Origin: Sipunculus nudus
Lineage: Eukaryota; Annelida; Sipuncula; Golfingiida; Sipunculidae
Direction: 5' to 3'
Length of the DNA stretch: 64,000 nt
NCBI GenBank assembly: GCA_026874595.1
Contig: CM049307.1
Span: forward strand, 46,309,678-46,373,677
The translations under genes were made by a program, and so were the position numbers. The notes under the pieces are model-generated. The model worked only from the letters and a program-made list of their open reading frames with translations. It had not been told where the DNA came from and made no database searches. Shown here one piece after another: positions 15,101-61,970 of the stretch (position 1 is the first letter of the stretch; the number at the start of each line of letters is the position of its first letter).

Positions 15101-18100
15101 AATTTAAATTAAATATAAAGTAAGGTGTTATATCAAATGAGTTATGTATCAGGTGGTTGTAACTTTTATGTGCAATTTCATATCAAATTTCTTGTTAAAA
15201 ATCTTCTCTATTAAAGACCATCTGCGAATTTTGGCCAGTACCAGGGGTGATATTTTTTACATCTGTATATGAAATATACAGCTATTTTTCAAATTATCAA
15301 CAAAAATAAGTGGACATGGATGGTGGAACAGAGAACATGTTTATAATTTTGCTGTGATATATCTATTACAGAACAACTTGACAGAGCTGAAATCCTTTGG
15401 TTCTCCGCCAAGTGCTGTTGTGAGCGTCACCGCTGCTGTGATGTGTCTGCTGTCTAACAAATCTGCCAAAGTCCCTAAGGACAGGAGCTGGAAATCATGC
15501 AAGGGCATGATGAACAAGGTGGGTATATATGTGACGCAACTCTTTGTAAATGAAATTATGTAACACCAGTGGTCAGGAGTGAAAGAAGGGATCAATATAT
15601 GGTATATATAAGTTAAGGTTAATGAAGATAATATAAAAAAAAAATGAAATATTTATGAAAGGGCAGAAATTCTGTTTCCAACACATTTCTTTAGGATCAG
15701 GTCTGGAACAAATGCTTTATTTTAAAATTGGTCACATAAATATTTCTTATTGTATCAGATCCAGCAAAAAATTGAATAAAATTTGAACATATTTAATCAA
15801 AGTATTGCTTTCATTATGGTTTCAGTAATTTTTTTGTTCATTTATGTTTTTATTGTTCATGGCTTCTTTTGTAGGTGGATGACTTCCTCAACTCACTTAT
15901 TAACTATGACAAAGAAAACATCCCTGATATGTGCCTGAAAGCAGTCCAACCTTACATTGACAACCCAGAGTTTGACCCTGACTTCATCCGTGGCAAGTCT
16001 CTGGCTGCTGCAGGCCTGTGTTCTTGGGTGCGCAACATTGTCACATTTTATAATGTGTTTTGTGAGGTAGAGCCAAAACGTCTGGCACTCGAGGCTGCAA
16101 ACACACAGCTGAGAGAAGCCCAGGAGAAGTTGCGAGTCATCCAGAATAAAATTACAGCCCTGGAGGAAGCCTTAGGCAAGCTGACAGCTGAGTACGAGGG
16201 TGCTGTTGCAGCTAAGCTGAAGTGTCAAGAAGAAGCCGAAAGCACACAGCGTACACTGGAATTGGCTAACAGGCTGATTGGAGGACTGGCCTCTGAGAAC
16301 GTAAGATGGGCGGAGTCTGTTGGAGAGTTCAAGAAGCAGGAAACCACGCTCGCCGGTGATGTTCTTATGATCACTGCGTTTGTGTCATATGTCGGCTGCT
16401 TCACCAAACAGTATCGTTTGGATCTGATGGAGAAGCACTGGCTACCATTCCTGGCCTCTCTGAAGCACCCTGTCCCCATAACAGAAGGCTTAGATCCTCT
16501 CAGCATGCTGACCGATGATGCCACTGTCGCTGGATGGAACAACGAAGGCCTACCAAGTGACCGCATGTCAACTGAAAATGCCACCATATTGACCAGCTGC
16601 GAGCGCTGGCCTCTGATGATTGATCCACAGCTCCAGGGTATCAACTGGATTAAGACCAAATACGGCGACAACCTGCATGTGGTCAGGCTTGGACAGAGAG
16701 GCTACCTGGACGTCATCGAACGTGCGGTGTCATCAGGTGAGGTGGTACTTATTGAGAACATTGGAGAATCAGTTGACCCCGTACTGGACCCTATTCTTGG
16801 CAGAAACACCATCAAGAAGGGACGTGCCATCAGGATTGGAGACAAAGAGGTAGAGTACAACAAAGAATTCCGCTTGATTCTACACACCAAGCTCGCTAAC
16901 CCTCACTACAAGCCTGAGATGCAGGCACAGACCACTTTGATCAACTTCACTGTGACAAGGGACGGTCTGGAAGACCAGCTGCTAGCTGCTGTAGTGAGCA
17001 AGGAACGACCAGATTTGGAGAAGCTGAAGTCTGACCTGACCCGCCAGCAGAACGAGTTCAAGATCACTCTGAAACAGCTGGAAGACTCCTTGCTGGCCCG
17101 TTTGTCAGCAGCTCAGGGTGATTTCCTCGGAGATACAGCACTGGTGGAGAACCTGGAAACTACAAAGCGTACAGCAGGTGAAATTGAAGAGAAGGTGAAG
17201 GAAGCTAAAATTACTGAGCAGAAGATTAACGAGGCCCGTGAGCTCTACCGCCCCGCTGCTGCTAGAGCATCACTCCTCTACTTCATCATGAATGATCTGG
17301 TCAAGATTCATCCCATGTACCAGTTTTCACTCAAGGTGGGTTACAAAATATGTTTTAGCCAGTTCCACTCACACTAACAACCACACATATTATAAGCCAG
17401 ACATGTCACTCTGTATTTAAACCAATCTGGTGTCACAGGGAAACTAGTCAGGAAAAATTAATTTGCCTGCTCCCTCAATCATTTGGTCCCAGAGCCCACA
17501 GGACAATACATACATTTTTGTTTGTGGCTTTATGTTATAACATATGAATTATGACTAGCTCAAGGCATATAAAACATGAAATCCAGAAGCTAAATAATGA
17601 CATCATGCTTAGGGTATAGCTACCATTTTCCTCATTAAGTAGATGGTGCCACTCCCTAGAAGCCACAGATCTATCCTTTAAACAAAAGGTAAAAATGGAT
17701 CACAAAAAAAAATCATCTCTGTTAAGTATAGATGAGCTGTCACCAGGGACTTAGATAGTCATTTAACCTATTGTTATTGTTCCTTCTGTCAGGCCTTCAG
17801 TGTGGTGTTTGACAAGGCCATCAGCAGAGCAGAGGCTGCGGAGGAGGTGAAGCAGCGAGTGCTGAACCTGATCGATTGCATCACATACTCGGTGTATGTA
17901 TACACCACCAGAGGGCTGTTTGAAAGGGACAAGCTCATCTTTACATCCCAGATGACTTTCCAGGTAAAATCTGTACAAATTTATAATAACAGATACCTAT
18001 TTATTAAAGCAAACTATTCTTATCATGAAGTCTTGTATTATACTATTTCTCATAAAATACAGTATTAGATCAATATTTGAATGACTTTTTCATATGGCTT

Positions 18101-38215: not shown

Positions 38216-39340
38216 TGTCTATCTCTCTCTTTTTTTTGTTTTATTGCCCATCAGCGTCATCCGGGGGTCTTTATATTGTATATAGGAGTGAATATTAGCT
38301 CTTGCAATTCATATATTTGACCGGCTCAGTTAATAGGTTTCAAATTTTACAGGGCTAAGGAAATTAATTAGTTACACAGATGATAGGTACATGGGTGAGG
38401 AATGAATGAATAAAAGTTCCAAAGCAATCATTCTTTAGGAGTGCCAAGGGAATCAGAAGTTGCTGAGATGAATTGTTTTACCATATTTTTGCAGTTAACT
38501 TTTACAAACTTAACCATTACTGGCTGTAAACTTCAGAGATGCCAACCTCTGAGGGTAAAAAAAGGAGGTTTTCATCGAGAACCATGGCCCTTGACAGATG
38601 GGGTCCAGGAGGCCGCCTTAGGGCCCCTGGTTGGGTCCCTGCATTTTGAGGTTTTGAATGGCCCAAAATCAGCTGTTTTTTTGCAAATTTTTAACAAAAT
38701 CTGATAGCAGTACAAGGCTCAAATTACTTTTTTAAATTTATTAGCAGTATGTGCTAATCATTTCCAAATTGATTGGCAAATAGTCAAATGTCATGCAAGA
38801 CTCTAAAAAAATATAACCAGCTAAAACAAAGATGGCTATACAAACAGGGACACCCCTTATCTGTCATTTTAAAGAGTAAAAAACATTTGAAACTTAACCT
38901 GGAGATTTATTTGAGAATTCTTAGTTGTCATATTATAGGCTGTAACTTCCAGTTGCAGTATTCTAGGTAATTATTGAAAAACATAAACTTTGAAGAAAAT
39001 TTTCTAAAAAAAATCAAGGCCTACAGGCCTAATGCGAACCTGTGCAATGATATTACACCAGGTATAATGCTTCAATGCTGGAGCATTACTTTTCAAGAAA
39101 ATGTGTAACATGTATATGAACAATGCAAGTACTAAACACTTAGAACAAGAAACAATTAAACAAACATCACTGCTGAAATTCTGGCATGGCTGCACTCAAC
39201 ACAAAAACTAGAATACGGGTAGTCAACAAGCAACTACGTGTATCCGCCAAAATCCGAGTGGGACGGGTGAAGTGAGGCATGGATTGAGTAGCAAGGGGAA
39301 ATAGAGTGAGGCGATTTGCATAATAGCCTGGATGTCTGCA
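38216..39340. other. Intergenic, no recognised gene
   Basis: A short GC-richer patch at 38,540-38,660 looks like an interspersed repeat, but I found no second copy in the window. Otherwise AT-rich and empty. Confidence 0.4.
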
Positions 39341-40483
39341 GCCGAAATGTGTATGTAGGTTGCGCCACCTACCACAAAATCCAGAAAGCTGTCCAAGTTG
39401 TATACATATGCAAAATCTTAGGCAGATAAGTCAAACCACTACTTGTATATGAGTGATCTTATCCCACAGCAGACAAACAGAAGGTTGCCAAAAATGGTGG
39501 CAGGTGGCGCCACAAATATTGTGTATGATTGAGAGCTAACTGAGATCTATACGAATGCAAAATTTCAGGGGGATATGTCAAACCAGTCCTGAGATATAAG
39601 CCTGAATGTCTGCAGCCTATACATAAATGTAGGTGGCGCCACCTGCCACAAAATCCAGAAAGCTATCCAAGATGTATAAACATGCAAAATTTTATGCAGA
39701 TAAGTCAATCCACAACTGAGATATGAGTGATTTTATCCAGAGGCAAACAAACAGACTGACGCTGTGCAAAATTAGTTGCAGGTGGCGCCACCAGTATTGC
39801 GTATGATTGAGAGCTATGTGAGATCTATACACATGCAGAATTTCAGGGCGATATGTCAAACCAGTCCTGAGAAATAAGCCTGAATGTCTGCAGCCTATAC
39901 ATAAATGTAGGTGGCACCACCTGCCACAAAATCCAGAAAGCTATCCAAGATGTATAAACATGCAAAATTTTATGCAGATAAGTCAAACCACTACTGAGAT
40001 ATGAGTGATTTTAGCCCACGGCAGACAAACAGATGGACGCTGTGCAAAAATGGTGGCAGGTGGCGACATCAATTTTGGGTTAGATTAAGAGCTATGTGAG
40101 ATCTATAAACATGCAAAATTTCAGGGGTATATGTCAAACCAGTCCTGAGATATAAGCCTGAATGTCTGCAGCATATACATAAATGTAGGTGGAGCCACCT
40201 GCCACAAATTCCAGAAAGCTATCCAAAATGTATAAACCTGCGAAATTTTAGGCAGATATGTCAAACCACTGCCTAGATATGAGTGATTTTATCCCTTGGC
40301 AGATGAACAAATGGACACTGTGCAAAAATGGTTGCAGGTGGCGCCACCAGTTTTGCGTATGATAAAGAGCTATGTGAGATCTATAAACATGCAAAATTTT
40401 TGCCCAATCGGTCAAATGGTTTCGGAGATTTGAGCTTGGATGTCTGCAGCTTAACGTGAATGTAGGTGGCGCCACCTGTCAAA
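39341..40483 (+). repeat. Satellite array B (left part), 277-bp period with palindromes
   Basis: Units begin with text such as TGTCTGCAGCCTATACATAA and carry two copies of the palindrome GGTGGCGCCACC or variants, one followed by TG (CACCTG) and one by AG (CACCAG). The CACCTG-type copies fall near 39,633, 39,910, 40,187 and 40,465, a period of 277 bp, with the other type about 148 bp after each. Non-coding. The array resumes after 43,425, so the intervening block looks inserted. Confidence 0.85.
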
Positions 40484-43424
40484 CAAGTGACCCATGGGTC
40501 ATGACGCTCAGCTGTCTGGGAAGAGATTCGCAAAAAAAAAAATTTATCATCTGAACGGTAGTATATACCCATTCAACTGAAGCATCAAACAGATTAACCA
40601 ACAGACCAAGATTGTGTCTGTATTTATATATATATATATAATTTATATTTATATAATAGAGAAAAAATGCGTAAACTTTAAAAAAAATACAGGTGGCTCC
40701 ACCAGTCTGCAGAAACTAATAAAAACAGTTAATGGTCAATATTCATGCAAAGAATCATGGTGATCTCTGCATTAGTTTATCAGATACTTCAGCTTTTGGA
40801 TCAAATTGTCCATTATTCTGAGGGATACTTCGGAGTCCTATAACTTTAAGGATATGGGTAACAGAGACCTAATTTCAGGTTTCCACAGACACTTTTCATG
40901 GGCCTCCTTGCATGACAAGAATAAAGATTCTAGGTCGAGTTGTTACAATTTGTGCCACGTTAACAAATGACAGCATCCTTAAAGGTCTCAAAAATAGAGA
41001 AAAAATTCCTAAAAATTTGAAAAAAAATAGAGGTGGCGCACCCAGTCTGCAGAAACTGATGGAACACCTCATGATCAATATGTATGCCAAAAATCATGAC
41101 CATCAGTGTTGTAGTTATTAAGATACTGCAGTTTTTTTATCAAATTTTTCTTTATTCTGGGGGGGGGGGGCGGTATTTTGGAGCCAATAAAGCTTAAAGG
41201 ATATGGGTAACAGAGACCTAATTTCAGGTTTCCATGGAGACTTTTCATAGGTCTCACGGTGTGTCAAGAATGAAGATTCTAGGTCCAGTTGTTATAATTT
41301 GTGCCCTGTTAACAGATGTTCAAATTTTTAAACGTCTCAAATATAGAGAAAACAATTCGTAATAATAAAAAAATACAGGTGGCGCCACCAGTCTGCAGAA
41401 ACTTATGAAACATCTCTTGATCAATATGTATCCCGAAAATCATGACCATCAGTGTTGTAGTTATTATGATGTTGCAGTTTCTTTTTATTAAATTTTTCAT
41501 TATGCTGGGGGGTAATTGGGAGCCCCACAGCTCAAAGGATATGGGTAACAGAGACCTTATTTCAGGTTTCCATGGAAACTTTTCATAGGTCCCTCAGTGT
41601 GTCAAGAATGAAGATTCTAGATCCAGTCTTTACGATTTGTGTCCTGTTAACAGATGTTCACATTTTTAAAGGTCTCAAAAATAGAGAAAACAATTCGTAA
41701 AGAATCGAAAAATACAGGTGGCGCCACCAGTCTGCAGAAACGTATGAAACATCTCATGATCCATAGGTATGCCAAAAATCATGACCTGCAGTGATGTAGT
41801 TAATGAGATATTGAAAGTTTTTGTATGAAATTTTTGACTATTCTAGGGGGTACTTTGGGGGCCCATGGCTCGAAGGATATGGGTAACAGAGACCTAATTT
41901 CTGGTTTCCATGGAGACTTTCCATAGGTCTCTCAGTGTGTCAAGAATGAAGATTCTGGGTCCAGTCTTTACAATTTGTGCCCTGTTAACAGATGTTCAAA
42001 TTTTTAAAGGTCTCAAAAATAGAGAAAACAATTCGTAAAGAATCAAAGAATACAGGTGGCGCCACCAGTCTGCAGAAACTTATGAAACATCTCTTGATCA
42101 ATATGTATCCCGAAAATCATGACCATCAGTGTGCAGTTATTGAGATGTTGCAGTTTCTTTTTATTAAATTTTTCATTATGCTGGGGGGGGGGGGGGGGTA
42201 ATTTGGAGCCCCACAGCTCAAAGGATATGGGTAACAGAGATCTTATTTCAGGTTTCCATGGAGACTTTCATAGGTCCCTCAGTGGGTCAAGAATGAAGAT
42301 TATAGGTCCAGTCTTTACGATTTGTGTCCTGTTAACAGATGTTCACATTTTAAAAGGTCTCAAAAATAGAGAAAACAATTCGTAAAGAATTGAAAAATAC
42401 AGGTGGCGCCACCAGTCTGCAGAAACTGATGAAACATCTCATGATCCATAGGTATGCCAAAAATCATGACCTGCAGTGATGTAGTTAATGAGATATTGAA
42501 AGTTTTTGTATGAAATTTTTTACTATTCTCGGGGGTACTTTGGGGCCCCATAGCTCGAAGGATATGGGTACCAGAGACCTAATTTCTGGTTTCCATGGAG
42601 ACTTTTCATAGGTCTCTCAGTGTGTCATAAATTAAGATTCTAGGTCCAGTCTTTACAATTTGTGCCCTGTTAACAGATGTTCAAATTTTTAAAGGTCTCA
42701 AAAATAGAGAAAACAATTCGTAAAGAATCGAAGAATACAGGTGGCGCCACTAGTCTGCAGAAACTGATGAAACATCTCATGATCAATAGGTATGCCAAAA
42801 ATCATGACTTGCAGTGATGTAGTTAATGAGATATTGAAGTTTTTGTATGAAATTTTTTACTATTCTAGGGGGTACTTTGGGGCCCCATAGCTTGAAGGAT
42901 GTGGGTAACAGAGACCTAATATCTGATTTCCATGGAGACTTTTCAAAGGTCTCTCAGTGTGTCAAGAATGAAGATACTAGGTCCAGTCTTTACGATTTGA
43001 GCCCTGTTAACAGATGTTCACATTTTTAAAGGTCTCAAAAATAGAGAAAAAATTCGTAAAAAATCGAAGAATACAGGTGGCGCCACCAGTCTGCAGAAAC
43101 TGATGGAACATCTCATGATCAATATGTATGCCAAAAATCATGACCATCAGTGATGAAGTTAATGATATATTGAAGTTTTTGTATGAAATTTTGGACTATT
43201 CGGGGGGGGGGGGGTACTTTGGGGCCCATAGCTCGAAGAATATGGGTAACAGAGACTTAATTTCTGGTTTCCAAGGAGAATTTTTATGGACCTCTAAGAA
43301 TGTCGAGTTACAAAATTCTAGGCCCAGCGGTTACGATTTGTGCCTGGTTAACAGACAGACAGACAGATGGACGACGGACAAAGAGTGATCGCTATAGCTC
43401 AGATGACTTAGTCAGCTGAGCTAA
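40484..43424 (-). repeat. Family A repeat inserted in array B, with internal ~340-bp tandem units
   Basis: On the minus strand it has the same ends as the copy at 3.4-4.05 kb: TTTAGCTCAGCTGACT at the 43,424 side and CATGACCCATGGGTCACTTG at the 40,484 side. Where copy 1 is 0.7 kb, this one is 2.9 kb because an internal unit is repeated about eight times. The phrase CAGGTGGCGCCACCAGTCTG (or a variant) recurs near 40,690, 41,031, 41,376, 41,714, 42,053, 42,400, 42,737 and 43,075, about 340 bp apart. G-runs of 8-15 sit in several units. The flanks (ccacctgtcaaa before, aaaatcaagaaagctg after) join into the normal array B unit seen at 43,825-43,850. Confidence 0.8.
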
Positions 43425-44560
43425 AAATCAAGAAAGCTGTCCAGGATGTACACACATGCAAAATTTCAGGTGGATAAGCCCAACCAATGCACAAATGGTT
43501 CCGGAGATATGAGCTTGGATGTCTGCAGCATAAATGTGAATGTAGGTGGTGCCACCTGTCATAAAATCAAGAAAGCTGTCAAGGATGTATAAACCTGCAA
43601 AATTTCAGGTGGATAAGTCAAACCACTGCCGAGATATGAGTGATTTTATCCAAGGCAGATGAACAAATGGACGCTGTGCAAAAATGGTTGCAGGTGGGGC
43701 CACCAGTTTTGCGTATGATAAAGAGCTATGTGAGATCTATACACAAGCAAAATTTTGGCCCAACAGGTCAAATGATTCCTGAGATATGAGCTTGGATGTC
43801 TGCAGCTTAGTGTGAATGTAGGTGGCGCCACCTGTCAAAAAATCAAGAAAGCTGTCCAGGATGTACACACGTGCAAAATTTCAGGTGGATAAGTCTAACC
43901 ACTGCTGAGATATGAGTGATATTATCCCAAGGCAGATGAACAGATGGACGCTGTGCAAAAATGGTTGCAGGTGGCGCCACCATTTTTAGAGTATGTTATA
44001 AAGTTATCCAAGAGGTACATTTGAGCAAATTTTTTAGCCTGATCAGTCAAACAGTTCCCAAGATGTGGGTTTATGTATTGAAACAGACGCACAAATGGAC
44101 GCTGGGCAGAGAGGAAAGGTCAGAGGTCAACCAAAAATGAGGGCACAGCAGTTCACATGTGACTCTATCATAATTCCGAATTTAAAAAAATTCAGCCCAG
44201 TGGTTACAGAGGATCCTGTTCTCCAGAAACCTATGCGGCGGCGGCGTCCAACTGAAAACATAGTTTCCGCAAAACTCTGTTTTGGCGGATACAATGATTG
44301 TGGCTGGCACCACCAGTCTTGTATACAACGAAGAGATATATACATATGCCCAATGTCAGACTGATATGTCAAACCCCTCTGTGAAATAAGCAGGGACATA
44401 CACTGTGCAAAAATTATTGTAGGTTCGCCACCAGTCTTGTAAACTATAAGGCTACCCGATATGTATAAACATGCCCAATTTTAGGCTGATGTATAAAATT
44501 CCTCTGCAGAAATAAGCAGGCGCTAACACTGCAAAAGTCAATGTAGGTGGCACCACCTGT
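43425..44560 (+). repeat. Satellite array B (right part)
   Basis: Continues the 277-bp units of 39.3-40.5 kb, with palindromes near 43,546, 43,691, 43,820, 43,969 and 44,545. The last units (44.1-44.56 kb) are more diverged. Confidence 0.8.
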
Positions 44561-45060
44561 CTTGTAAATGAGAATACCATCAAAGACGCATAGACATGTC
44601 AAAATATCAGGCCAAAACATCAAACTTCCCCAGAATTTGATGCACTGGGCTGACGAGGCTTAGGTGAGTAAAGGCAGTTGCCCACGAGTGAACTGTGACA
44701 ATATGCTGCCTCAAGCTACTGCACTGAGTGAACTCTTGACCTGTACTTGGCTGCACTGAGAGAACTCTTGACCTGTTGCATAATCTGACACAGTTGGCAG
44801 TCTGCCAAAGCTATAAATAGATCCAGGCTGAACTTTGGTGCCAAATCTGATGCAGTGAGCAGTCTGCCAAAGCTATAAATAGAATGCAGCTACTGCACTG
44901 AGTGAACTCTTGACCTATACCTGGCAGTACTTCTTCCAATCCTGGCCCAAAACTATTTATAGAGCTGACATCATCTTGGCTAATGGCCAACATCAAGGCA
45001 CTGGCGATCTGCCAATGGTAAACCAAGTGCTGCCATCTGTACATAAAAGTAGTCCCTACT
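44561..45060 (+). repeat. Low-order repeats
   Basis: The phrase CTGCACTGAGTGAACTCTTG, or close variants, occurs about four times (44.7-44.93 kb) and once more near 48.35 kb. CAGTCTGCCAAAGCTATAAA occurs twice. Non-coding. Confidence 0.6.
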
Positions 45061-50849: not shown

Positions 50850-51363
50850 CTGCAAATACAGAAATATGATTAACCTTCAACATTTACAGAAAATCATATG
50901 AATAATATGAGCTTAATTGCAAAAGTCACCTGACAAAGAAAATCTCGGCCCACTCTCCTGACAACTCACCTTAACCTTTTAAACTGCTCTTACATTTCTC
51001 TTGCAAATAGTAATTTTAAATACTGTAATTCTGTAATTGTTTTTTAATATAATTTTTTTTCTAACTCAGGATTACACATACTCTACAGCAACTTTTCACA
51101 TTTCATGTGTATAATTTTTAACCTATATTATAGTGTGAAATGTAAATAACATGTTTTAAAATTATTTTTTAAAGTTTAATCCTGCAAATAGGAAAATTGA
51201 CCTCACCACCAAAGCCCTTATGCCCTGCCCCTTTGATCAAATAAAATTATTATTTTGATCCCCCAAAACGCTCCTACATAGGTCTTCCTTGCAATAGCCG
51301 TTTACAGGACATTAATGATGTCACAAAGGCCATCAACTGGAATTGCTACACTGATGAATATAT
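50850..51363. other. Intron or upstream region of NDUFAB1
   Basis: AT-rich. No exon recognised. It ends at the 5' LTR of the retrotransposon. Confidence 0.5.
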
Positions 51364-51569
51364 TGTAGTAGGAACGGATTAAATGACCTGCCAAAGGATC
51401 CGGGACCCGTCATAGGACCCCCCAGTTTTACGCAAGAAGACCTCCGCGGAGTGTCGTGTGTATAAGGGCCGAGCTGTAGAGAGCCATCGAGGAGTCCATG
51501 TCCGATTGGAGCTGCCTGTTGGCGTGTTTGAGGTCGTACTACGAGGTGAGACTACCTACATCTACTATA
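51364..51569 (+). repeat. 5' LTR (206 bp)
   Basis: Starts TGTAGTAGG and ends CTACTATA, imperfect inverted termini. A TATAAGG box at 51,461-51,467 is a likely promoter. A consensus-like splice donor, GAG|GTGAGA, lies at 51,545/51,546. Confidence 0.93.
51461..51467 (+). promoter_or_regulatory. TATA box in the 5' LTR
   Basis: TATAAGG stands about 100 bp into the LTR, where U3 promoters are expected. An identical copy lies in the 3' LTR at 60,998-61,004. Inferred from position and motif only. Confidence 0.5.
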
Positions 51570-51570
51570 A

Positions 51571-51585
51571 TGGCGACGAAGGATG
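51571..51585 (+). other. Primer-binding site
   Basis: TGGCGACGAAGGATG begins one base after the LTR end. The leading TGG is complementary to the CCA end of a tRNA, as expected for a minus-strand primer site. The tRNA species was not determined. Confidence 0.7.
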
Positions 51586-52597
51586 ATTTGGAGCGGGTTT
51601 AGCCCCGGTTTTACCTCTTAGATAGTCGGTAGTCGTTGTATCTAGATCTTAGCTCGGCAAGGAGCCGCCATTTTGCTTGGCGCGCTAGTCAAAAACTTTG
51701 GTCCCTTTGCTGACTTCAGCAGTCGAGACAAGCTTAGTACAGCGTTGTCTTGTGTTTACTTAACTGGACAATTAGTTGTTCTTGCCTGTTATTGTACTGG
51801 ATAGAACTGTCAATAGTCTTAGTGCTAGCAATAGTCGAATTTCGGTCTTCTCCATATCGTTTTGATCAGAGCTGTGATCACGTGCCCCGTGTTTCTGGTC
51901 AAGATCCCCGAAATTCTTCACTCTGAACGATTTTTTGTCACGTATTTCCTTGAGTATTGCCCTAGAATATTTCATATTCTTCTCTGCCCCCTTGATCAGC
52001 AGCAATTTCTGTGGTTACAGGCAATTTTCCTTAATATACCTTGTTAGGATCGGAGTTTGTACGAGTTTATACTTGTATGCTATTACTGTAGTATTAGCCC
52101 CTTTTGTAGTTCACAGTCTGCCTGTACTGAGGCCCAATCTTGTATTTTTAATGTGCAGGTAAGGTCAAGGTTGTTTGTTGACAAAATTTTTTTAAGCCAT
52201 CAGTAGTAATGGGTGGGTAAGCAGGAAGCATGAGGTAACCACATATTGCTGTTGTTGTATTGTGCTTCCACCAAGTTCTTTTATAGTCTATTATAGACTG
52301 GACAGGTACTTTTAGTGTAGTAGGTCCCGATACTTTTTGCATTATTTTTCATATTCCTCTTTAAACTGTATAGATCTGGACCCTGTGCATGCACTTTGCT
52401 GGCTTACTTGCTTGTTCATGTTGTTGAGCCCCTATTACCTTTGTTGTTGGTTATGAGCCTGGCATTGCTTTTTGCTAAATTTGCGCATCCCTAATCAGCT
52501 TGCGTTGTTTGTTTTGCAAATCACTGAATATTCCTTGCGTGCATTGGGCTCCCTGTCACACAGGCAACCTTCCCTGTCCCTTGTTACAACTAGCATC
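51586..52597 (+). other. Untranslated leader of the LTR element
   Basis: About 1 kb between primer site and gag start. No ORF of note; expected to hold packaging signals, none recognisable. Confidence 0.4.
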
Positions 52598-54526
52598 ATG
52601 GCCCAATTTCAAAATTCTATTGATGTAAGTTCTGCTTCGGTGTCCCAATTGGTCACCTATTTCACGGATATGCTGTCCCCAGCCACTATCCTCCACATTG
52701 TTCGGTTGCGTGAGTCAACCCCTGATTTTGGTCTACCTGATTTGGCTCATGCTACTGGTCTAGCGTTAACCTTTTGGGAGCGTCTTTCCCGGGAAGGCAA
52801 GATTCGTCTTTCGGGTAAGACGGGTGGGCCCCCGAATCCCGGCCAAAACGATTCCTCCATAGATCGAATCCTTCATGCACTTCCTACCGAAGCTGTATAT
52901 GTCCCGCCTCCAAATATGTTGAGGGAGGGGAGTGTAAGAGGTGACTGTTTACCCCAGTCTAGAGGTGTGGGAATGCGAAATGGTCCCAGTGTAGACCAAA
53001 CCCAGCCTGAACTCGGTCGTCATGCTGGATCCCCCAGTAATGAAGGCAGTAGTCCAGCGTCAACGGCTGGATATTCCCAGCAAGATATAAGTAACCTTGA
53101 CATGTTAACGATGATTGGGAATTCAGGTCCTCGGTCCACCCAGGGCGATATTAGGGGGGAAGTATACTATCAGGGAACAAATGAGGGTTTTGACCCAGCT
53201 ACAGGTCCTGCTTTAAGCGTGCGTCGGACTTCTGCCCCCTTACCAGTGAATTCACGCCCGGGTACTCAACCGGCCTCAGGTAATGTGGGTCCCTATAATC
53301 ACACACAGCGGGAGGCGTACGACCAGGGCGTCCTCTGGGCTCAGCCCACTAGTTCCAGCCGAGTTAGCAACAAGAAACGGTCTTCAAGGCCTTAGAAGAG
53401 TGTAGACAGACACGCACGGCGTCGCCGGCATAGGTCCAGTTCCTCTGAGTCAAGCGACTCAACCTCCGAAGAACGTGGCGGCACACGGTCCCGTAAGAAG
53501 CATCACCGGCGTCGGGTTAGGTCCATCAGCTCTAGTGATGGTTCGAGGCATAGGAGAAGGGATAACCGAGCCAGTTCTTACTCCGAAGATTCAGACTACT
53601 CTTGTTCACCTCACCGCCATGGCACCAGAAGGAGAAGAAGGGGCCCAGACATCATGAAGTTAGGCACCTTCACAGGCGATAGGAATTGGAGTGGTTTCTT
53701 CTTCCAGTTCCAGAGGTTGGCAGACAGGCGAGGATGGTCTAGACACAAGAAAGCAGAAAAACTTGTCGAGTCCCTTGGTGGGAGGGCCCTTGATTATGTC
53801 AGAGAGCTTGAACTGGAAGGTGACTACAAACGCTTAACTAAGAAGTTAGAGCAACGTTTCGGCATGAGAGATGCACCTATCACTGTGCGAAGGGAGCTTC
53901 AGTTTGCAAGACAGGAGGACCAGGAGACCCTGGAGGAGTTTAGCGAAAGGGTTCACGTCCAGGTTATAAACGGTTTCCCGGGCGCCACAGAAGATACAAT
54001 TCAACAGCTTGCCATTGAATACTTCCTGAGGGGATGCGGCGACAAGAAAGCAGCAGTTAGTGCCATGGGAAGGAACCCAAAATACCTCCACAAAGCTCTT
54101 CAATACGTGAAGGATGCCATCAACAACCACCGAGCCATTTATGGGAAGATACACATAGCCCGTAAAACGGTAACGTTCGCCGAGAGTGCAACGTCAGATA
54201 TGGAAGGTCAAGTTGACACAAAGCAGGCCCAGTCGACAATATCTGAGAGGGTCAACCCGCGGAATGGCACACAACCCGAAACCAGCGACCAGGCTTGGGC
54301 CCAAATGAACAAACGCATTGACAGTCTGGAAGGGTTGATCAAGAAAGCCTTAATGGTGTCCAGGCCCAGATCCGTAAGCCCAAGTAGGCCCCAGCTAAAG
54401 CCTGCTAATAGCGTCTGCTACAAATGCAATCAGCGGGGACACTATCAGAAACAATGTCCAAATAGTGAGGGCAATCCTGCCTATAAGGAACCAGAACAGG
54501 GTTTAAAAGGCCAAGGGTTGCGTTAA
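52598..54526 (+). pseudogene. gag: gag polyprotein gene, interrupted by one in-frame TAG
   Basis: Encodes the structural protein that packages element RNA. The first ATG of the frame is at 52,598 (MAQFQNSIDVSS). The frame runs 643 codons to TAA at 54,524 with one internal TAG at 53,393-53,395. The first 265 codons form a domain I do not recognise followed by a disordered Gly/Ser/Pro-rich stretch. After the TAG come an Arg/Ser-rich segment (53,400-53,640) and the capsid-like region (KLGTFTGDRNWSGFFFQFQR, then KLEQRFGMRDAP). A CCHC knuckle, CYKCNQRGHYQKQC, sits near the C-terminus. The TAG may be a disabling mutation or sequencing error. Its end overlaps pol by 40 nt. Confidence 0.85.
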
Positions 54527-57500
54527 ACGGCCTAGACGCAACCCAGTTATCAGAAGGCCATTTACAAGAAACAGAGGCTGACGAGGCCAATCGTCAGCAC
54601 TCATCAACCCCGCTAGGTGGGGCGGAGCAAGGTCAGTCTCCCCTTCAGTGGGAGGACTCCTCTGTCAGTTCAGGTACTCAGGAACGTTTCTGTGAGGCAG
54701 AAGTTAAAGTGTGCCAAACTCAAGGACTAACGCTAGTAGCCCCAGTTAAGATAAACGGGGTTGACACCCAGGCTGTGATCGACAGTGCGTCTCAAATCAC
54801 TGTGATCAGCCTCAGCTTTTATGATAGTCTACCCGAGAAGCCTGTATGCACAGGCACAGCCACCCTGAAAGGGATTGGTGGGGATGATTCGGCACTTACA
54901 GCAGAGCGCGCCCCTGACACAACTATCCAGTTCGGAAAGAAAGCGTACCATTGGCCAGTGTACATAGCCAAGATATCAGATTCAGTGCTTCTTGGTCTAG
55001 ACTTTCTACTGGCACAAAAGTGCACGGTTAATTTAGAAAACAAAACCGTAAGCTTACCTGGAGAGGTAGTACAGGCTTCAATCCGGACAAGTCCGGATGA
55101 CGATATCTGTGGATGTTCAGTAGTCGCTGCAGCGCGGAGGGTGCTGCAACCCAATGCGGTGAGCACCATCCCTATAAGAGTCCTTAGTTGCAGAGTTGAG
55201 AACTGCGACTACTTAGTTGAACCCAAGTTTAGCCAGGCGGAACTATGGTCCCCCAAGATGCTCACTAGGGGTAGTGGGCGCATAGAAGTTTGCAATAGTT
55301 CCAACAGGTGTATCACGCTTCGCCCAAATCAACCTGTGGGCGTGGCGACAGGAGTAGAAGGGATCCTTACATCCCTAAGTATCGAGTCTGCGGACTATAA
55401 CAGTGCTCCAACAGGGGGCGCTGTGCCGGTTCCACCAATACCAGTGCCCACTGTCAGACGCGTGTCTGGAATTGCAGGGGACCAGTTAAAGGAGAATACA
55501 GAGGGCAGAGTGGTACCAGACCATCTGAAAGAAACTGTCAGTCAGGTCAGGGAGACAGCATCAAAGGATCAGGCCACACAATTAGAGAAGCTCTTGCTAA
55601 CGTACCAGGACGTTTTTGCTAAGCACGACCTGGATCTAGGTTGCTTGTCTGAGGTTCCCCACAACCTGGATACAAAAAGGCCACGCGCCAGTCCACCAAC
55701 GTATGAGGAGAGTTCCAATCAGTTTCGAACAGGAAGAGAGGAGCCACCTAGAGAAACTCCTAGCAGCAGGGGTTATTCGCCATTCTAGTTCGGAGTGGGC
55801 CTCAGCACCAGTGTTGGTAAGGAAGAAGGACGGAGGGGTGAGATGGTGCATAGATTTTAGAGCCATGAACGAAAGGACAGTCAAGGACACCTACCCTCTC
55901 CCCTAATCGAAGATTGCTTGGATACCCTGGCTGGCACTGTCTATTTCTCCACTCTGGAATTAGCCTCCGGCTACTACCAGATAGAGTTGGAAGAAGAGGC
56001 AAAAAGGAAAACAGCATTCATAACAAAGTACGGGTTGTTTGAACACAACCGTCTCGCTTTCGGCCTTTGTAATGCGCCAGCGACCTTTCAGCTTGCCATG
56101 AATCACATGCTGAGGGGGCTCACGTGGTCCGAAGTCATCGTGTACATCGATGACATAATCGTCCTCGGTACTTCATTTGACCAACACTTGGCCAGTTTGG
56201 AGAAAGTGTTCGGATGTCTGCGGACACACAACCTGAAACTCAAGCCAAGAAAGTGTGAGTTCCTGAGATCTGAAGTAGAATTCTTGGGACGGACCGTTAG
56301 CTACGAAGGTGTCAAGATCACAGACGGGAAAACGGACATAATCAGAAGTTGGCCAGTCCCTGTCACAAGGAAAGAACTCGAATCCTTCCTGGGATTCTGC
56401 AACTATCATCGCACACACATCCAAGGCTATGCGGGAATTACTGCATGTTTGTATGAGCTGGTGAAACCCAAATCCATTTTCGTATGGTCTGAACAGCACC
56501 ATGATGCATTCGAAGCACTCAAGGAGCGGCTGACTTCAGCCCCGTGCTTAGCGCTGCCTTCAAAGGAAGGAACGTTCATTTTAGATTGCGACGCCTCTTA
56601 CTACGCAATAGGGGCTGAACTCTCGCAGTTGCAGAACGGCCAGGAGCGTACCATCTCATATGCGAGCTTTACTCTGACCAAGGAGCATAGACGCTACTGT
56701 ACCACCCGCAAGGAACTGCTGGCGGTAATACGGTTTTGTCGACATTACAGACACTATCTCTTGGGGAGACCATTTGTGGTAAGGTCTGACCACAATTGTC
56801 TGGCCTGGCTTAAGCATTTTCGGCATGTAGAGGGTCAGCTAGCCCGTTGGCTGGAGGAGCTTGCTAACTATGACTTTAAGATCGTGCACCGGGCCGGCAA
56901 TAAGCATTGCAACGCGGACGGCCTTTCCAGAATTCCAGCACCGCCATGTGAATGCTACAGTGCAGGAGCTCGTTCCCAAGACCTCCCTTGTAAGGGGTGT
57001 CAGTACTGCCAGAGAGCAAGTGAAAAGTGGATCCGATTCACAGAAGATGTAGATGATGTGGTTCCTTTGGCAGTCAGGACATGTGAACTTGGGGTTACGG
57101 CCGAAGATACAGCTGGTGAAGAGGGACCTGGAGATGCGAGAGAAATTGACGGTTCCTCAGATGCATCTGGATGCCATACAGCCACGGATTCAGGCAGTGA
57201 AGTGTCCGACACAGAATCCATCCCGGACCAGACGCCTAATTGGCTGGAAGCTTACTCTTCTAATCAGCTGATAGAGATGCAGGATGCTGACCCGGACCTA
57301 AAGTCCTTGGTATTGTGGTTGGACAATTGAGAGCCGAAGCAGGCAGAACTGCTCCTCACTAGTCCTGCAGTTAAATCTTTGTGGGCGTGTAGGTCCCAAT
57401 TGCAGTTGAGGGGCGGTGTACTCCATTATATGTGGGAAGGCGATCATGGGGCGCACCCCTTATTGGTGGTCCCTGAGGGTTTAAAACAGGAAATCCTTAA

Positions 57501-58905
57501 ACTTTGCCATGGCTGCCCCACGGCTGGGCACCTAGGAAGAGATAAGACCTTGGCACGCCTCCGTAGGTCCTTTTTCTGGCACAATATGGTCAGAGACTGT
57601 GCACTGTATGTGGCACGGTGTCAAGTCTGCAACCGACATAAACGGCCTGTTAGAACTGCAAAAGCAGGATTAGTCAACTATCATTCTGGATATCCAATGG
57701 AACGTGTGCATCTGGACGTCCTTGGGCCATTTACAACAAGCATACAGGGGAACTCTTACATCTTAATGATGTGTGACCAATTCTCAAAATGGCTTGAGTG
57801 TGCAGCTACTCCTGACCAGACAGCGGAGACTGTGGCCAAGCAATTCATCATGCATTTCGTCACCACCTTCGGTTGTCCGCTTATCGTTCACACCGATCAA
57901 GGCCGCAATTTTGAGTCGAACCTGTTCAAAGCGTTCTGTGAGAGGATGGGTATAGCCAAGACTAGGACTACGCCCTACCACCCCTCTTTGAATGGCCAGG
58001 TTGAACGGCAAAACAGGAATGTGTTGCAGATGGTGCGGTGTATGATCCAAGGCTGGACTCGGGAGTGGGACGAAGATCTACCACTCGTCGTTATGGCTCT
58101 GCACTCGATGGTCAACCGAATGACAGGTTTCTCTGCAAATCAAATTATGCTGGGACGCAAGGTTTACCAACCCACCGATTTGATACTTGGTATGAATACA
58201 GATGAGCCAAGCCATACTCCTGAGAGCTGGGTCCATAACCTCACGAAGCGCATGGAGGCCATTCACCATCGTGTGAGGGAGAAGTTGAAAGGTAACCTCG
58301 AGCATCAAAAACAACTGTACGACATTCTCATAAGAGAGGATCGTTATGGGATGGGTGATGTGGTTTACCTCCGTGACAGGTCAACAAAGAAGGGGCAAAG
58401 CCCGAAGCTTCAACCCATCTGGAAAGGGCCTTATCTAGTGGTTAAGGCAAAGCCTCCATTGTATTTGGTCAGGACAAAGAAAAAAGAGTCCTACCATCAC
58501 CACAACAACCTGAAGCGTTGTGCAGACGGCTTCCTTCCCCATTGGCTACGAAGAGCTCGCGCTCAGTTATTCCATCAGGAAACAGCCACCTAACTAGATC
58601 AGTCTGAATCCATTCCAGAACCCTCTGATGGTGGTCAAGATCCAGCAGAAGGAGGGTCAGCACCGACCTCGTCAGGGGAACCTGCAGTAGCTGTTGCAGC
58701 CTCAGAGGGCGCCCTTGGTAGTGATCCCGCCGTTTCGGATCCTAGTAGCAGTATAACTGAAGATATTCCAAAGGGAAGTCCAGAGCCTCTTTCTGAGTGC
58801 CAGGATTCGGGGATCTCGCCACTAGACTCACGGGCCCATAGCAACAGGGAGTCGAGGCGTAAGTGCCGGAAGCCGGCTTATCTTAAGGATTATCTTATGC
58901 CATAG
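54487..58905 (+). pseudogene. pol: pol polyprotein (protease, RT, RNase H, integrase), broken by frameshifts and stops
   Basis: Copies element RNA to DNA and integrates it. Protease: AVIDSASQITVIS (DSA where DSG/DTG is usual). [34 protein letters not shown] and VYIDDIIVLG. RNase H: FILDCDASYYAIGAEL, TRKELLAV, RSDHNCLAW. Integrase: an H-H-C-C zinc region (CHGCPTAGH to CQVC), catalytic Asp in HLDVLG and HTDQGRNF, and Glu in NGQVERQNR. Breaks: a +1-type shift near 55,700; a lost base near 55,906-55,912 at a C run; TGA at 57,328; TAA at 58,591. The frame then continues to TAG at 58,903, ending in a basic KPAYLKDYLMP typical of Gypsy pol. Motif A Asp is Glu (55,957-55,959). Confidence 0.9.
54502..54559 (+). 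promoter_or_regulatory. Programmed -1 ribosomal frameshift signal (gag-pol)
   Basis: TTTAAAA at 54,502-54,508 is in the required register (T TTA AAA in the gag frame). A 6-nt spacer follows. Then GGGTTGCGT (54,515-54,523) pairs perfectly with ACGCAACCC (54,536-54,544). Loop bases GGCCT (54,529-54,533) can pair with AGGCC (54,555-54,559), giving an H-type pseudoknot with loops of 5, 2 and 10 nt. The gag stop lies in the first loop. Shifting -1 enters the pol frame, which is open from 54,487. Confidence 0.85.
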
Positions 58906-58969
58906 CGTAAGGTGCATGGAGTTATAGATAAGGTGTTGCCATTTATTGTTATTTAGAGTTACATTTTGT

Positions 58970-58971
58970 AG
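58970..58971 (+). promoter_or_regulatory. Candidate splice acceptor for a subgenomic nuclease mRNA
   Basis: ACATTTTGTAG ends at 58,971, four bases before the nuclease ATG. Together with the GAG|GTGAGA donor in the 5' LTR (51,545/51,546) it could give a spliced message, as retroviruses make env. Inferred from motifs only; the polypyrimidine tract is short. Confidence 0.4.
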
Positions 58972-58975
58972 AGCT

Positions 58976-60445
58976 ATGGAAGACCCAGAGAGTCTTGGGG
59001 AGGACAGATTTGTTCCCAATTATGAGCCCGTTCCTGGGGCTAAATCCGGTGCTACTGGCAGCAGCAGGAAGTCCAGGTGCCAACACACTTGTCGTATATG
59101 TGGGGAAGATAGCAGTTCCCTTGGCCGGCATGTGGCAACTGACCATTTGCCCTGGTGGCACCACCCGTTCACAGCATGCTGGACGTGCAGAGTCCAGGAG
59201 TCGTCCAAATGTTTCCTTAGGCTTAGGCATACAGGGGTTGGATGCAAAAAGTTTGCTGATAGTAATCTGTTTGAGGACTTGTGGGGATTATGGGTATACC
59301 AGTTCATCCAGTTCATTACCCAAAAATTAGGCTTGGGTGAACCCTCTGATCTCAAGGCATATATCCTTCAACACCAGTTGCATAACCCTAATCCTCATCC
59401 GCCAGGGTTTAACGAGGAAGAGCAGGTTATCTTAGCCAAGGTAGCTTCTAAGTACGGATGGGAGATACCCAGTGTGTTAAGTGCTAGGCCCCCTTATTCG
59501 GAAATCTGTGTGATTCACTGGGACGTTCTAATGAGGCTTTTAGCCACACTTCCAGTTGATACTAGGTCTGCCATCTCAGGGTTCGTCCCCGACTCTAACA
59601 CTCATGCCCCAGTAGTAGGCATCATAGATTCACACTGCCACCTTGACGTCATGCTTAGCAGGGCAGATGCCAAGTCTCTAGCACAGTTCGAGGTCTCAGT
59701 GGGTGAGCCAGAGCGAGCGGTCTTAGGCATGGTTTCGAACTTTGTGTTCCCTCATTACTGGGATAGTCACCTTAGTTTATCTGGGGACCGACGTATAAAG
59801 TGTTCTTTCGGTGTCCACCCTCGCCTCATCAAGTCCAGGGCAGCTCGCCAACAGCAGTTATTGTCGCTTGAGCACCTTTTGGCCTTACCTTCCTGTGTAG
59901 CTTTGGGTGAAGTGGGGCTAGAATTCACTCATACTAGCACTAGGGAACAGCTTTTGCAGACTGGGTTCTTCAGGGAGGTTCTTAGTCTTCTGCGCCGGGA
60001 GGATTTCCAGTCCAAGGTCCTCATTCTCCACTGTAGGGATTACGGCTCGGGGGAGGCGGCTAGGCAAGCCTTAGCCATGCTGCTGGATTCTGGGTTGCAA
60101 GGACATAAGATCCACCGTCACTGTTTCTCAGGGAATAAAGACGAGTTAAAGACGTGGGTTAGTCGTCTTCCGAATTGTTACTTCGGGTTCACATCTACAG
60201 TACATAGAAGTCAGGAAACAGAGGAAGCAGTATCGGTAGTGCCTCTTAACCGAATCCTAGTCCAGTCCGACAGTCCATACCTCGCTGCTTCCCCATGGCA
60301 TCTCGGAGAGCTGGTTAAGTATTTGGCCCAGTTGAGAGGGTTACCAGTAGAAACCTTTGCAATGCACGGCAATGCTAATGCACGGGAGCTGTACGGAGCC
60401 TTTCCGGAGGGTACAGCCGATGTCTGCGATGCAACCCCTCGGTGA
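58976..60445 (+). CDS. TatD-family metal-dependent nuclease with N-terminal zinc-finger-like region, third ORF of the LTR element
   Basis: 489 codons without a break, from an ATG in good context (G at -3, G at +4) to TGA. Residues 39-57 fit C-x2-C-x9-H-x4-H; more Cys/His follow (C68, C71, C79, H85, C90). Residues 100-210 are unassigned. Residues 213-475 are a TatD fold: IIDSHCHLD (H220, H222), FGVHP (281), ALGEVGLE (E312), LHCRD (H352), HRHCFSG (H382), LVQSDSPYL (D432), so every metal ligand of TatD nucleases is present. TatD proteins cleave DNA; the animal relative TATDN2 is reported to act on R-loops and RNA. Here it lies between pol and the polypurine tract, where env would be, in a different frame from pol. 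No signal peptide or membrane segment is visible, so it is not an envelope protein. Activity is inferred. Confidence 0.93.
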   Translation: MEDPESLGEDRFVPNYEPVPGAKSGATGSSRKSRCQHTCRICGEDSSSLGRHVATDHLPWWHHPFTACWTCRVQESSKCFLRLRHTGVGCKKFADSNLFEDLWGLWVYQFIQFITQKLGLGEPSDLKAYILQHQLHNPNPHPPGFNEEEQVILAKVASKYGWEIPSVLSARPPYSEICVIHWDVLMRLLATLPVDTRSAISGFVPDSNTHAPVVGIIDSHCHLDVMLSRADAKSLAQFEVSVGEPERAVLGMVSNFVFPHYWDSHLSLSGDRRIKCSFGVHPRLIKSRAARQQQLLSLEHLLALPSCVALGEVGLEFTHTSTREQLLQTGFFREVLSLLRREDFQSKVLILHCRDYGSGEAARQALAMLLDSGLQGHKIHRHCFSGNKDELKTWVSRLPNCYFGFTSTVHRSQETEEAVSVVPLNRILVQSDSPYLAASPWHLGELVKYLAQLRGLPVETFAMHGNANARELYGAFPEGTADVCDATPR

Positions 60446-60886
60446 GTCCTCTGAGAGTATTCGTACAGCTAGTCCCCCTTATAAGTTGTACTCCAGTGGG
60501 AATAGCTCTCTTCGTTTATAGTTCTTTTCATAGTTCACTTGTTATTACCTGTAGGGCAAGGTTTTGTTGAGACAGTTTAAACTTAATAGGTTTAGAAGCT
60601 GTACAGTGTACAACGGATGCGTTGCCAATGTCTGCGGGGCAAGCCTCGGTGACCCTTCCGACTTTGTACAGCTGATTGTCCCTTAGGGCATCACTAGATA
60701 TGTTGTGTTGTTCCAAGCCAGAGTAATTTAGACCTCAGGTCGACAGGGTAATTTTAGTGTTCAGTGTCCAGTGTACTGTCCAGTTTGACTACTTTGTCCA
60801 GTTGTTAGCTGCAAACGTTCAATATCCATAGTCTCGGGATATAGTCGCCTCAGTCCATTCTTTTGGAAGATGGGCTCACCTCTCAC
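60446..60886 (+). other. 3' untranslated part of the LTR element
   Basis: No ORF. A segment at about 60,628-60,687 imperfectly repeats the end of the nuclease ORF and following bases (60,418-60,480): both share ATGTCTGCG, CCTCGGTGA and GTACAGCT in the same order. Confidence 0.6.
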
Positions 60887-60900
60887 AAAAAGGGGAGGAA
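60887..60900 (+). other. Polypurine tract
   Basis: AAAAAGGGGAGGAA abuts the 3' LTR, the expected plus-strand primer for reverse transcription. Confidence 0.88.
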
Positions 60901-61106
60901 TGTAGTAGGAACGGATTAAATGACCTGCCAAAGGATCCGGGACCCGTCATAGGACCCCCCAGTTTTACGCAAGAAGACCTCCGCGGAGTGTCGTGTGTAT
61001 AAGGGCCGAGCTGTAGAGAGCCATCGAGGAGTCCATGTCCGATTGGAGCTGCCTGTTGGCGTGTTTCAGGTCGTACTACGAGGTGAGACTACCTACATCT
61101 ACTATA
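60901..61106 (+). repeat. 3' LTR (206 bp)
   Basis: Identical to the 5' LTR except for C at 61,067 in place of G. It is followed by ATAT, which also precedes the 5' LTR. Confidence 0.93.
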
Positions 61107-61970
61107 ATATCGCAGTCATTGTGAACTGTCTTGCAATATTTAGGATTATTTGTCTCATACAAATCATGTGCCATGCAGGTAAGACATTATTATTCACTCA
61201 GTAGTCAGAGGAATGGCTTCTACAATCTTTGGCCTAGAACTTTTAATGCTGTCTCCTTTGTATAAAAAATATCCCGGAAAACATGCCGACATGGGTACTG
61301 GTACAGACTACACGTGTTCTGTTTGGGAGAGCTCTCCCAAATCATGCACATTTTATTATTTTGAGGTGACTGACAGATTACAGTAACATTTGGGACCTGA
61401 TTGGCTGCACGGAACAGTTATGCTCATTATTATTCATTAAATGAACGTGCTATTAAGTTCACGTAAAGTTCATGGTGAGGTCAATTACTTAAATTCCTGT
61501 AAGTTTGCTCTTTCCTGATTTTTTTTCTTAATCAGGTTACAGAATTTGTAAAGAACCTAAATGCAATTCATATGGATTACATTTGTATTCCAGCATGAAA
61601 TGGTTATCTTTTTTTCCACTTAAAATTGTGAATTTGTCAGTCATGGCCTCATGGGGCTTAGTAAATGATGGTTTTTCCTTGATTTTGCCATGTTAGTGAC
61701 ATTTTCAGGAATTTCTGGAATATTCTTCTTAAATCTGCCTTAATCTGGCACTGCCTCAGTCTATATTTTAGGTTTTCCAATTAGAAATTCACAGGACAAG
61801 CTTCTTTAATCTTTGGAAAATTTAGAAAAATTTAATGACTACCAGAACTGATTTGCGGATTAAATATGGATATTCCCAATTTCAATGATGTATTGTTTTG
61901 ACTTTTGATAAAAGCACAAGCTGTTTGCTGTTAATTGTTTGTTCTGGGGCTGTCACAACTTAACAATATA
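61107..61970. other. Region 3' of the LTR element, no recognised feature
   Basis: AT-rich and probably continuous with the sequence at 50,850-51,363 before the insertion. If NDUFAB1 has its first exon further right, this is intron 1 of that gene. Confidence 0.35.

Follow-up and report, generated by a model that had tools for sequence, protein, structure and literature searches.

What is an intact gene for a TatD-type nuclease doing inside a long terminal repeat (LTR) retrotransposon, at the place where retroviruses carry env? The question is raised by a 64,000-nt stretch of the Sipunculus nudus genome (assembly GCA_026874595.1, contig CM049307.1; hereafter the window, with element coordinates counted from its first letter), in which a third open reading frame (ORF3) lies between pol and the polypurine tract of a Ty3/Gypsy-type LTR element at 51364–61106, i.e., in the env slot. 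We find that ORF3 is a true gene, conserved over a long time within a clade of Ty3/Gypsy LTR elements. A class II (HxH, TATDN2/YcfH-like) TatD domain combined with a zinc-finger/helical domain was almost certainly gained, most simply once, before the present families split, and was inherited together with pol in this genome. Overall, the locus is best explained, and in our judgement probably so, by ORF3 being the env-slot TatD gene of a Gypsy clade, expressed from a spliced RNA, acting in the nucleus and serving replication or integration. The gene and its two domains are as follows.

58976..60445, plus strand: ORF3, zinc-finger plus TatD nuclease protein of 489 amino acids, intact, without internal stop
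59090..59188, plus strand: N-terminal zinc-finger region, C39-x2-C42-x9-H52-x4-H57-LPWW..ACW-C68-x2-C71
59624..60397, plus strand: TatD domain (PF01026) with the ligands H220, H222, E312, H352, H382 and D432

The initial annotation had read this locus as an intact, 489-codon TatD-type nuclease in the env position of an LTR retrotransposon, with all six metal ligands of the fold and neither signal peptide nor membrane helix, and each of these features was borne out. Counted from the ATG at 58976 (the ORF as listed begins at a TTG at 58946), residues 217–474 match the full PF01026 TatD_DNase profile (positions 1–253; E = 2.9e-38, 132.2 bits at a cut-off of 27). In an alignment of 13 sequences, comprising the window ORF3 and the database relatives P0001–P0012, five of the ligands (H220, H222, E312, H352 and H382) show no variation, and the sixth, D432, reaches at least 90% conservation. 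Hydropathy analysis gave no hydrophobic N-terminus and no membrane helix, the best 19-residue Kyte-Doolittle mean being 1.44 and lying within the TatD domain, so that ORF3 does not qualify as an envelope gene. According to the available text of PMC10085689, class II TatD enzymes, as exemplified by TATDN2, TATDN3 and YcfH, are characterized by an HxH motif; by this definition ORF3, with its H220-x-H222, therefore belongs to class II. The same text attributes 3'-exonuclease and apurinic/apyrimidinic (AP) endonuclease activity to TatD enzymes. A structure model of ORF3 (mean predicted local distance difference test score, pLDDT, of 83) had TATDN3 (2y1h; E = 2.6e-13) as top Foldseek match, followed by other TatD enzymes, and the best 50 rows comprised TatD and other, mostly metal-dependent enzymes; the viral structure library yielded one match only below E = 0.001, a giant-virus protein (6.8e-10).

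Upstream of the nuclease, alignment and structure model delineate an ordered, conserved zinc-finger/helical domain beginning at about residue 35. Its C39, C42, H52, H57, C68 and C71 are invariant among the 13 sequences, with HLPWW..ACWxC as signature. The zinc-finger region has no family match in Pfam or NCBIfam, and on alignment of N-terminal pieces conservation proved too low for a locus search. A basic stretch, defined as at least four K/R in the 16 residues before the first finger, was found in 13 of 18 members examined. As a separate observation, six of the relatives (P0004, P0005, P0006, P0007, P0009 and P0011) carry a cysteine-rich insert (e.g., TCxCxPxCxxxxxC) in the TatD domain after GE-GLD/E, which perhaps constitutes a further metal site.

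The body of the element around ORF3 is composed of the following parts.

51360..51363 and 61107..61110, strand not applicable: target site duplication ATAT, 5' and 3' copy
51364..51569, plus strand: 5' LTR, 206 nt, TGTAGTAG...CTACTATA, its end matched by the flanks of 16 other copies
51571..51582, plus strand: primer-binding-site (PBS)-like sequence TGGCGACGAAGG, directly 3' of the 5' LTR
52598..54526, plus strand: gag region, broken here, with a CCHC zinc knuckle and a weak PNMA-like match
54709..58905, plus strand: pol region, broken here, with protease, reverse transcriptase, RNase H, integrase and a basic tail ..KPAYLKDYLMP
60887..60900, plus strand: polypurine tract AAAAAGGGGAGGAA, directly 5' of the 3' LTR
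60901..61106, plus strand: 3' LTR, from the repeat and copy comparison

The paired repeats at 51364 and 60901 span 208 nt and differ at a single position (1/208); the LTR was nonetheless set to 206 nt, ending at CTACTATA, because the comparison with 16 other copies sets this end. The gag start is taken as the first ATG of its frame and the pol start as that of the listed ORF. Matches of the internal ORFs to a zinc knuckle, PNMA (weak), a retroviral aspartyl protease, RVT_1, RNase H and integrase (H2C2/rve) place protease, reverse transcriptase, RNase H and integrase in Ty3/Gypsy order, as is also the case in relatives and in the database protein P0020; LTRs, PBS-like site, polypurine tract, short target duplication and zinc-knuckle gag are further features in keeping with Ty3/Gypsy membership. 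Of the three coding regions of the window copy, only ORF3 is intact; the gag and pol frames end or are interrupted at 53395, 55788–55918, 57330 and 58593. Part of the PBS-like site, TGGCGACGAAG, recurs in the family B copy L142, and this copy (L031/L142) has identical 232-nt LTRs (232/232) with ATAT on either side. The end of pol is spaced from ORF3 by 70–101 nt in the four copies whose pol tail can be read (L002, L012, L031 and L045), L002 and L012 having the basic tail and a 70-nt spacing. Directly 3' of the 3' LTR, we further noted ATA in 16 of 27 copies of families A and B (L001–L014, L016–L018 and L027–L036); together with ATAT on both sides in the window and L031, these flanks point to a preference for AT-rich integration targets.

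That ORF3 belongs to the element, and did not arrive in it by accident, is evident from its copies. One alternative, for which nothing speaks beyond the identity of the domain, would be that a processed copy of the host TATDN2 gene landed once and by chance in a Gypsy element. It is refuted here: the S. nudus genome (G000, 1.43 Gb) contains 94 matches to ORF3, and dozens of copies in many families lie beside pol. An integrase was present on the same strand within the fetched 1.5 kb upstream at 30 of 30 loci (L001–L030, representing 28 distinct places), and reverse transcriptase and/or integrase within 4.5 kb upstream at 19 of 20 further loci (L031–L050). The refuting result named in the initial annotation, homologues that nowhere else adjoin pol, was thus not found: they adjoin it in 49 of the 50 fetched copies, which are 32–100% identical. 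Seventeen family A copies end their LTR at the same base and, with the exception of the pair L017/L018, have different 3' flanks, which means that they were mobilized separately.

Places beyond the 50 fetched copies were tested by coordinates. Of 104 integrase matches, 102 rows were used, as two are halves of listed loci, giving 101 loci after merging; two merged TatD searches, after removal of 14 rows on bacterial-looking contigs and three host TATDN2 exon rows, gave 109 TatD loci. Linkage was defined as TatD within 4 kb downstream of integrase on the same strand, with only the best integrase candidates scored. Among integrase loci sharing 50% identity or more with the window integrase, 60 of 79 had TatD downstream, versus 1 of 22 loci below 50% (Fisher p = 9e-10), and TatD therefore marks a pol clade; the linked fraction was 21/28 at 90% identity or more, 16/20 at 60–89% and 23/31 at 50–59%. 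Conversely, a scored integrase lay no more than 4 kb upstream, in the same orientation, at 61 of the 109 TatD loci, and wrong order or strand occurred in 0 of 109. The 14 removed rows are high-scoring bacterial-type TatD genes, several of equal score, on contigs C61, C62, C64, C65, C66, C69, C72, C74, C75 and C89, which probably derive from symbiont or contaminant bacteria.

ORF3 and pol also share their history. Over 16 lineages (14 of this genome plus two database pairs), integrase and TatD distances were correlated with r = 0.853, a value reached in 0 of 10,000 permutations, and the integrase tree reproduced each of the nine TatD groups whose support was 0.95 or higher. Mean identity over the same lineages was 39% for TatD and 55% for integrase; ORF3 therefore changes faster. 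All six metal ligands are kept in 40 of the 50 copies, arguing against the clear neutral decay that would have undermined the initial interpretation. Many of the other ten copies are degraded; of the ten, L014 and L026 have missing cells, L017 and L018 carry L382, L023 K352, L036 P352, L025 N432 and L040 N222, and the related copies L024 and L042 both have S at the position of D432. Purifying selection on ORF3 is detectable, albeit modest, as judged from pooled pairwise ratios of nonsynonymous to synonymous change (pN/pS) of 0.51 in family A (15 copies) and 0.29 in family B (10 copies), and from the distinct substitutions considered below. In the pair L041/L048, TatD dN was 0.21 with dS saturated, and integrase dN/dS was 0.09. 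Several families appear to have been active recently, given near-identical LTRs in the window (207/208), L031/L142 (232/232) and L038 (223/225).

Where the TatD domain came from can be narrowed down to some extent. A 68-row tree computed by a quick method unites 17 ORF3-type proteins with a Shimodaira-Hasegawa-like approximate likelihood ratio test (SH-aLRT) support of 99, leaves host TATDN2 outside this group and sets ORF3 plus host TATDN2 apart from 49 prokaryote-type rows (99); in an earlier FastTree analysis with a shorter host sequence, host TATDN2 stood beside a bacterial row (0.82). Neither tree included human TATDN1–3. The view of ORF3 as a captured TATDN2 relative thus holds in part. 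The class II HxH motif is shared, as is IHRHCF, which occurs in host TATDN2 and ORF3 alike; of the 12 database relatives of ORF3, 8 carry HRHC[FY] and all 12 carry H-x-H-C-[FY], and HRHC[FY] was absent (0 of 83) from TatD proteins on prokaryote or viral contigs. On the other hand, introns interrupt the host gene (L134, L141), whose N-terminus is long and of low complexity, whereas ORF3 is uninterrupted and mobile, and the ORF3-type finger was not seen in the translated host stretches of L134 and L141. The N-terminus of TATDN2 is disordered according to the available text of PMC12709183, which ORF3, with its ordered zinc-finger/helical domain, does not match. Its own clade and its own zinc-finger domain therefore indicate an old acquisition instead of a recent copy of host TATDN2. 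The ORF3 TatD is thus old and distinct, and descent from an ancient TATDN2 is plausible. Six short TatD pieces that had been taken as possible host exons (L135–L140) turned out to be ORF3-like.

Database relatives tie in with this picture. The best ORF3 relative (P0001) and the best pol relative (P0020) both reside on contigs of 557,787 nt and occupy matching places in the two trees, and the ORF3 relative P0008 and the pol relative P0044 are both on contigs of 7,874 nt; from the equal sizes we infer that each pair shares one contig. A profile search with the 13 members gave 31 proteins with few new members. Among viral contigs, three scans detected three TatD loci, all of prokaryote type, and no relative of the element, and the best 80 loci of a scan of genome contigs were prokaryote TatD sequences of 21–33% identity, which were used for the trees. 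One long TatD protein, P0142 (869 amino acids, on a 6.56-Mb contig), has a finger-like C/H cluster before the TatD domain and an IHLHCF motif; it joins the ORF3 clade with a support of only 45 and is possibly a cellular relative or a domesticated copy.

How would a third ORF downstream of pol be expressed? We consider it likely that a subgenomic RNA, spliced in the manner of env, serves as the message for ORF3; its donor would lie in the LTR or leader and its acceptor immediately 5' of ORF3. In the window, the candidate signals are these.

52156..52164, plus strand: best donor-like site, CAG/GTAAGG junction, in the leader (11.6 bits, next best 8.9; scan of 51572–60000)
58940..58975, plus strand: acceptor-like sites ..TTATTTAG and ..CATTTTGTAG (cut after each), directly 5' of ORF3

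In family B (3.5-kb stretch L142), the best donor-like site, AAG/GTAAGG with 11.4 bits, lies inside the LTR. The best acceptor-like site was located 0–94 nt from the ORF3 ATG in 11 copies (130 nt scanned), and acceptor scores combined over nine lineages gave p = 6e-4 versus shuffles and p = 1e-4 versus other windows. As far as signal scans can tell, the pattern resembles that of spliced retroviral env. Given the basic stretch that precedes the finger in 13 of 18 members, the resulting protein would then probably enter the nucleus, where the zinc fingers might hold it on nucleic acid or on the pre-integration complex. More tentatively, among the roles that could be envisaged for it, the two-metal TatD centre may act on DNA or RNA:DNA intermediates, trimming or nicking those that arise when the element itself undergoes reverse transcription, integration or post-integration gap repair. 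Processing of cDNA ends, RNA:DNA hybrids or integration gaps would be the most economical role.

Several observations weigh against the proposal of an env-slot TatD gene with spliced expression and a function in replication. The replicative role is one that we infer from fold and position. The acceptor of the window family, taken alone, is not significant (shuffle p = 0.17), and significance versus shuffles was reached in only 4 of the 11 copies (L038, L045, L048 and L050); some best acceptor will always exist in the 130 nt scanned. Three well supported integrase groups (joining L027, L050 and a five-lineage set) were not recovered in the TatD tree, where L050 is placed elsewhere with weak support. 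Among 120 of 816 pol proteins, 10 of the 12 ORF3 relatives had no contig partner. When distinct substitutions were counted, TatD pN/pS was only 0.51 in family A (p = 0.009) and 0.54 in family B (p = 0.011), compared with 0.32 (p = 4e-5) and 0.43 (p = 0.06) for integrase; since both families' TatD values depart from neutrality, we count this as selection on ORF3, in keeping with the dN/dS comparison among copies that had been called for at the outset. For close pairs of other families, TatD dN/dS was 0.44–0.60, near the integrase values of the same pairs (0.26–0.76), as expected with neutral post-insertion decay mixed in; given such decay of inserted copies, dN/dS within a family is by itself weak evidence. 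Finally, TatD was not detected at 19 of the 79 close integrase loci, and at 48 of the 109 TatD loci no integrase was scored within 4 kb. Many of the unpaired loci may be accounted for by fragmentation and by the limit on scoring; some TatD loci without scored integrase could be stand-alone, and many are fragments.

Those 48 loci are also what could be cited in favour of a host multigene TatD family that was invaded by retrotransposons. We disfavour this possibility as highly improbable in view of the constant order of integrase and ORF3 on one strand, the uninterrupted ORF and the same-base LTR ends in 17 copies with differing flanks. The agreeing distances and trees likewise contradict the chance insertion addressed above, as do the separate clade and a zinc-finger domain that was not seen in L134 and L141, the stretches of host TATDN2. 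The main rival concerns function: ORF3 might be a counter-defence or competition factor that degrades nucleic acids of host defence, cDNA of competitors or RNA:DNA hybrids and that the element can do without in its replication chemistry. Its evolution at a faster rate than integrase over the 16 lineages is what antagonists often display, and the Qat anti-phage system includes a TatD nuclease, a case of a TatD domain in genetic conflict, although ORF3 as a gene of a eukaryotic element matches the QatD model (NCBIfam NF041926) with 83.8 bits, below the cut-off of 230. Yet faster change is usual in accessory genes without conflict too, almost no variation is seen in the metal centre and zinc fingers across 13 diverse relatives, and nothing points to a defence target, so that we regard this alternative as unlikely, though worth keeping in sight. 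Alternatively, ORF3 could be a structural or regulatory nucleic-acid binder, acting in RNA export, packaging or targeting, that uses the TatD fold for binding only. The zinc fingers, the basic stretch of 13 of 18 members and the serine replacing D432 in the related copies L024 and L042 would agree with such a function; non-catalytic TatD folds, however, are expected to lose ligands, and all six are kept in 40 of 50 copies of several lineages, which renders binding without catalysis rather improbable.

The sole exception among the 50 fetched copies deserves separate mention. At L038, an LTR-ORF3-LTR unit lacks gag-pol and has kept the stretch upstream of ORF3.

G000:C7:62423367–62430746, about 3869–6454 oriented along ORF3: L038 unit with LTRs, TGCT duplication and ORF3

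Its LTRs are identical at 223 of 225 positions, the target duplication is TGCT, and ORF3 is open over 461 codons; of its near relatives, L041 has an in-frame stop and L040 is without the N-terminus. L038 is a deletion derivative, and possibly an ORF3-only non-autonomous element, of which a single copy was seen.

With Ty3/Gypsy elements (Metaviridae), including env-bearing ones of the errantivirus type, the element shares LTRs, a PBS-like site, a CCHC gag, the order of protease, reverse transcriptase, RNase H and integrase, the polypurine tract and a 4-nt duplication. A third ORF in the env slot, probably spliced, is common to both as well; there it encodes an envelope protein, here a zinc-finger TatD nuclease without membrane helix. 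With TATDN2 and other class II enzymes, ORF3 has in common the HxH motif, the full TatD domain, the ligands and, for host TATDN2, HRHC[FY]. To our knowledge, no described Gypsy lineage carries a TatD gene as third ORF. The additional RNase H of plant Athila/Tat elements and of dual-RNase H retroviruses sits in pol. Judging from the available text of PMC9040795, these are likewise retroelements that gained an extra nuclease domain, but of the unrelated RNase H fold, whereas the present case is a separate metallo-nuclease ORF downstream of integrase. Within the available text of the open-licence literature searched, including PMC6962438, PMC5408686, PMC5840709, PMC10085689, PMC12709183 and PMC12440569, no retroelement with a TatD gene was described, in accordance with what the initial annotation had stated.

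Beyond this locus, the element represents a retroelement lineage that kept a nuclease in the retroviral env slot through deep divergence. The benefit of a TatD enzyme to a reverse-transcribing element thereby becomes testable, with a tie to the resolution of R-loops reported for TATDN2 (in the available text of PMC12709183), and the ORF3 family supplies a conserved zinc-finger domain for which there is no Pfam model. A warning follows for genome annotation, as TATDN2 'expansions' in invertebrates may be mobile elements. The available text of PMC6962438 names TATDN2 in the legend to the Hox cluster figure of the giant squid, and our guess is that this gene is a retroelement ORF3. Whether there is a major animal Ty3/Gypsy clade in which a spliced, nuclear, zinc-finger-guided and obligate TatD nuclease has replaced env, with many invertebrate 'TATDN2' annotations (e.g., that of PMC6962438) being its gene, appears to us evenly balanced.

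Two further features of the window lie outside the element. Upstream of it, on the plus strand, dynein heavy chain exons (AAA_8, MT stalk, AAA_9) are found at 11487–12122 and 15875–17377. Tandem arrays occupy 39325–44568, several of them built of 276–338-nt units that contain GGTGGCGCCACC.

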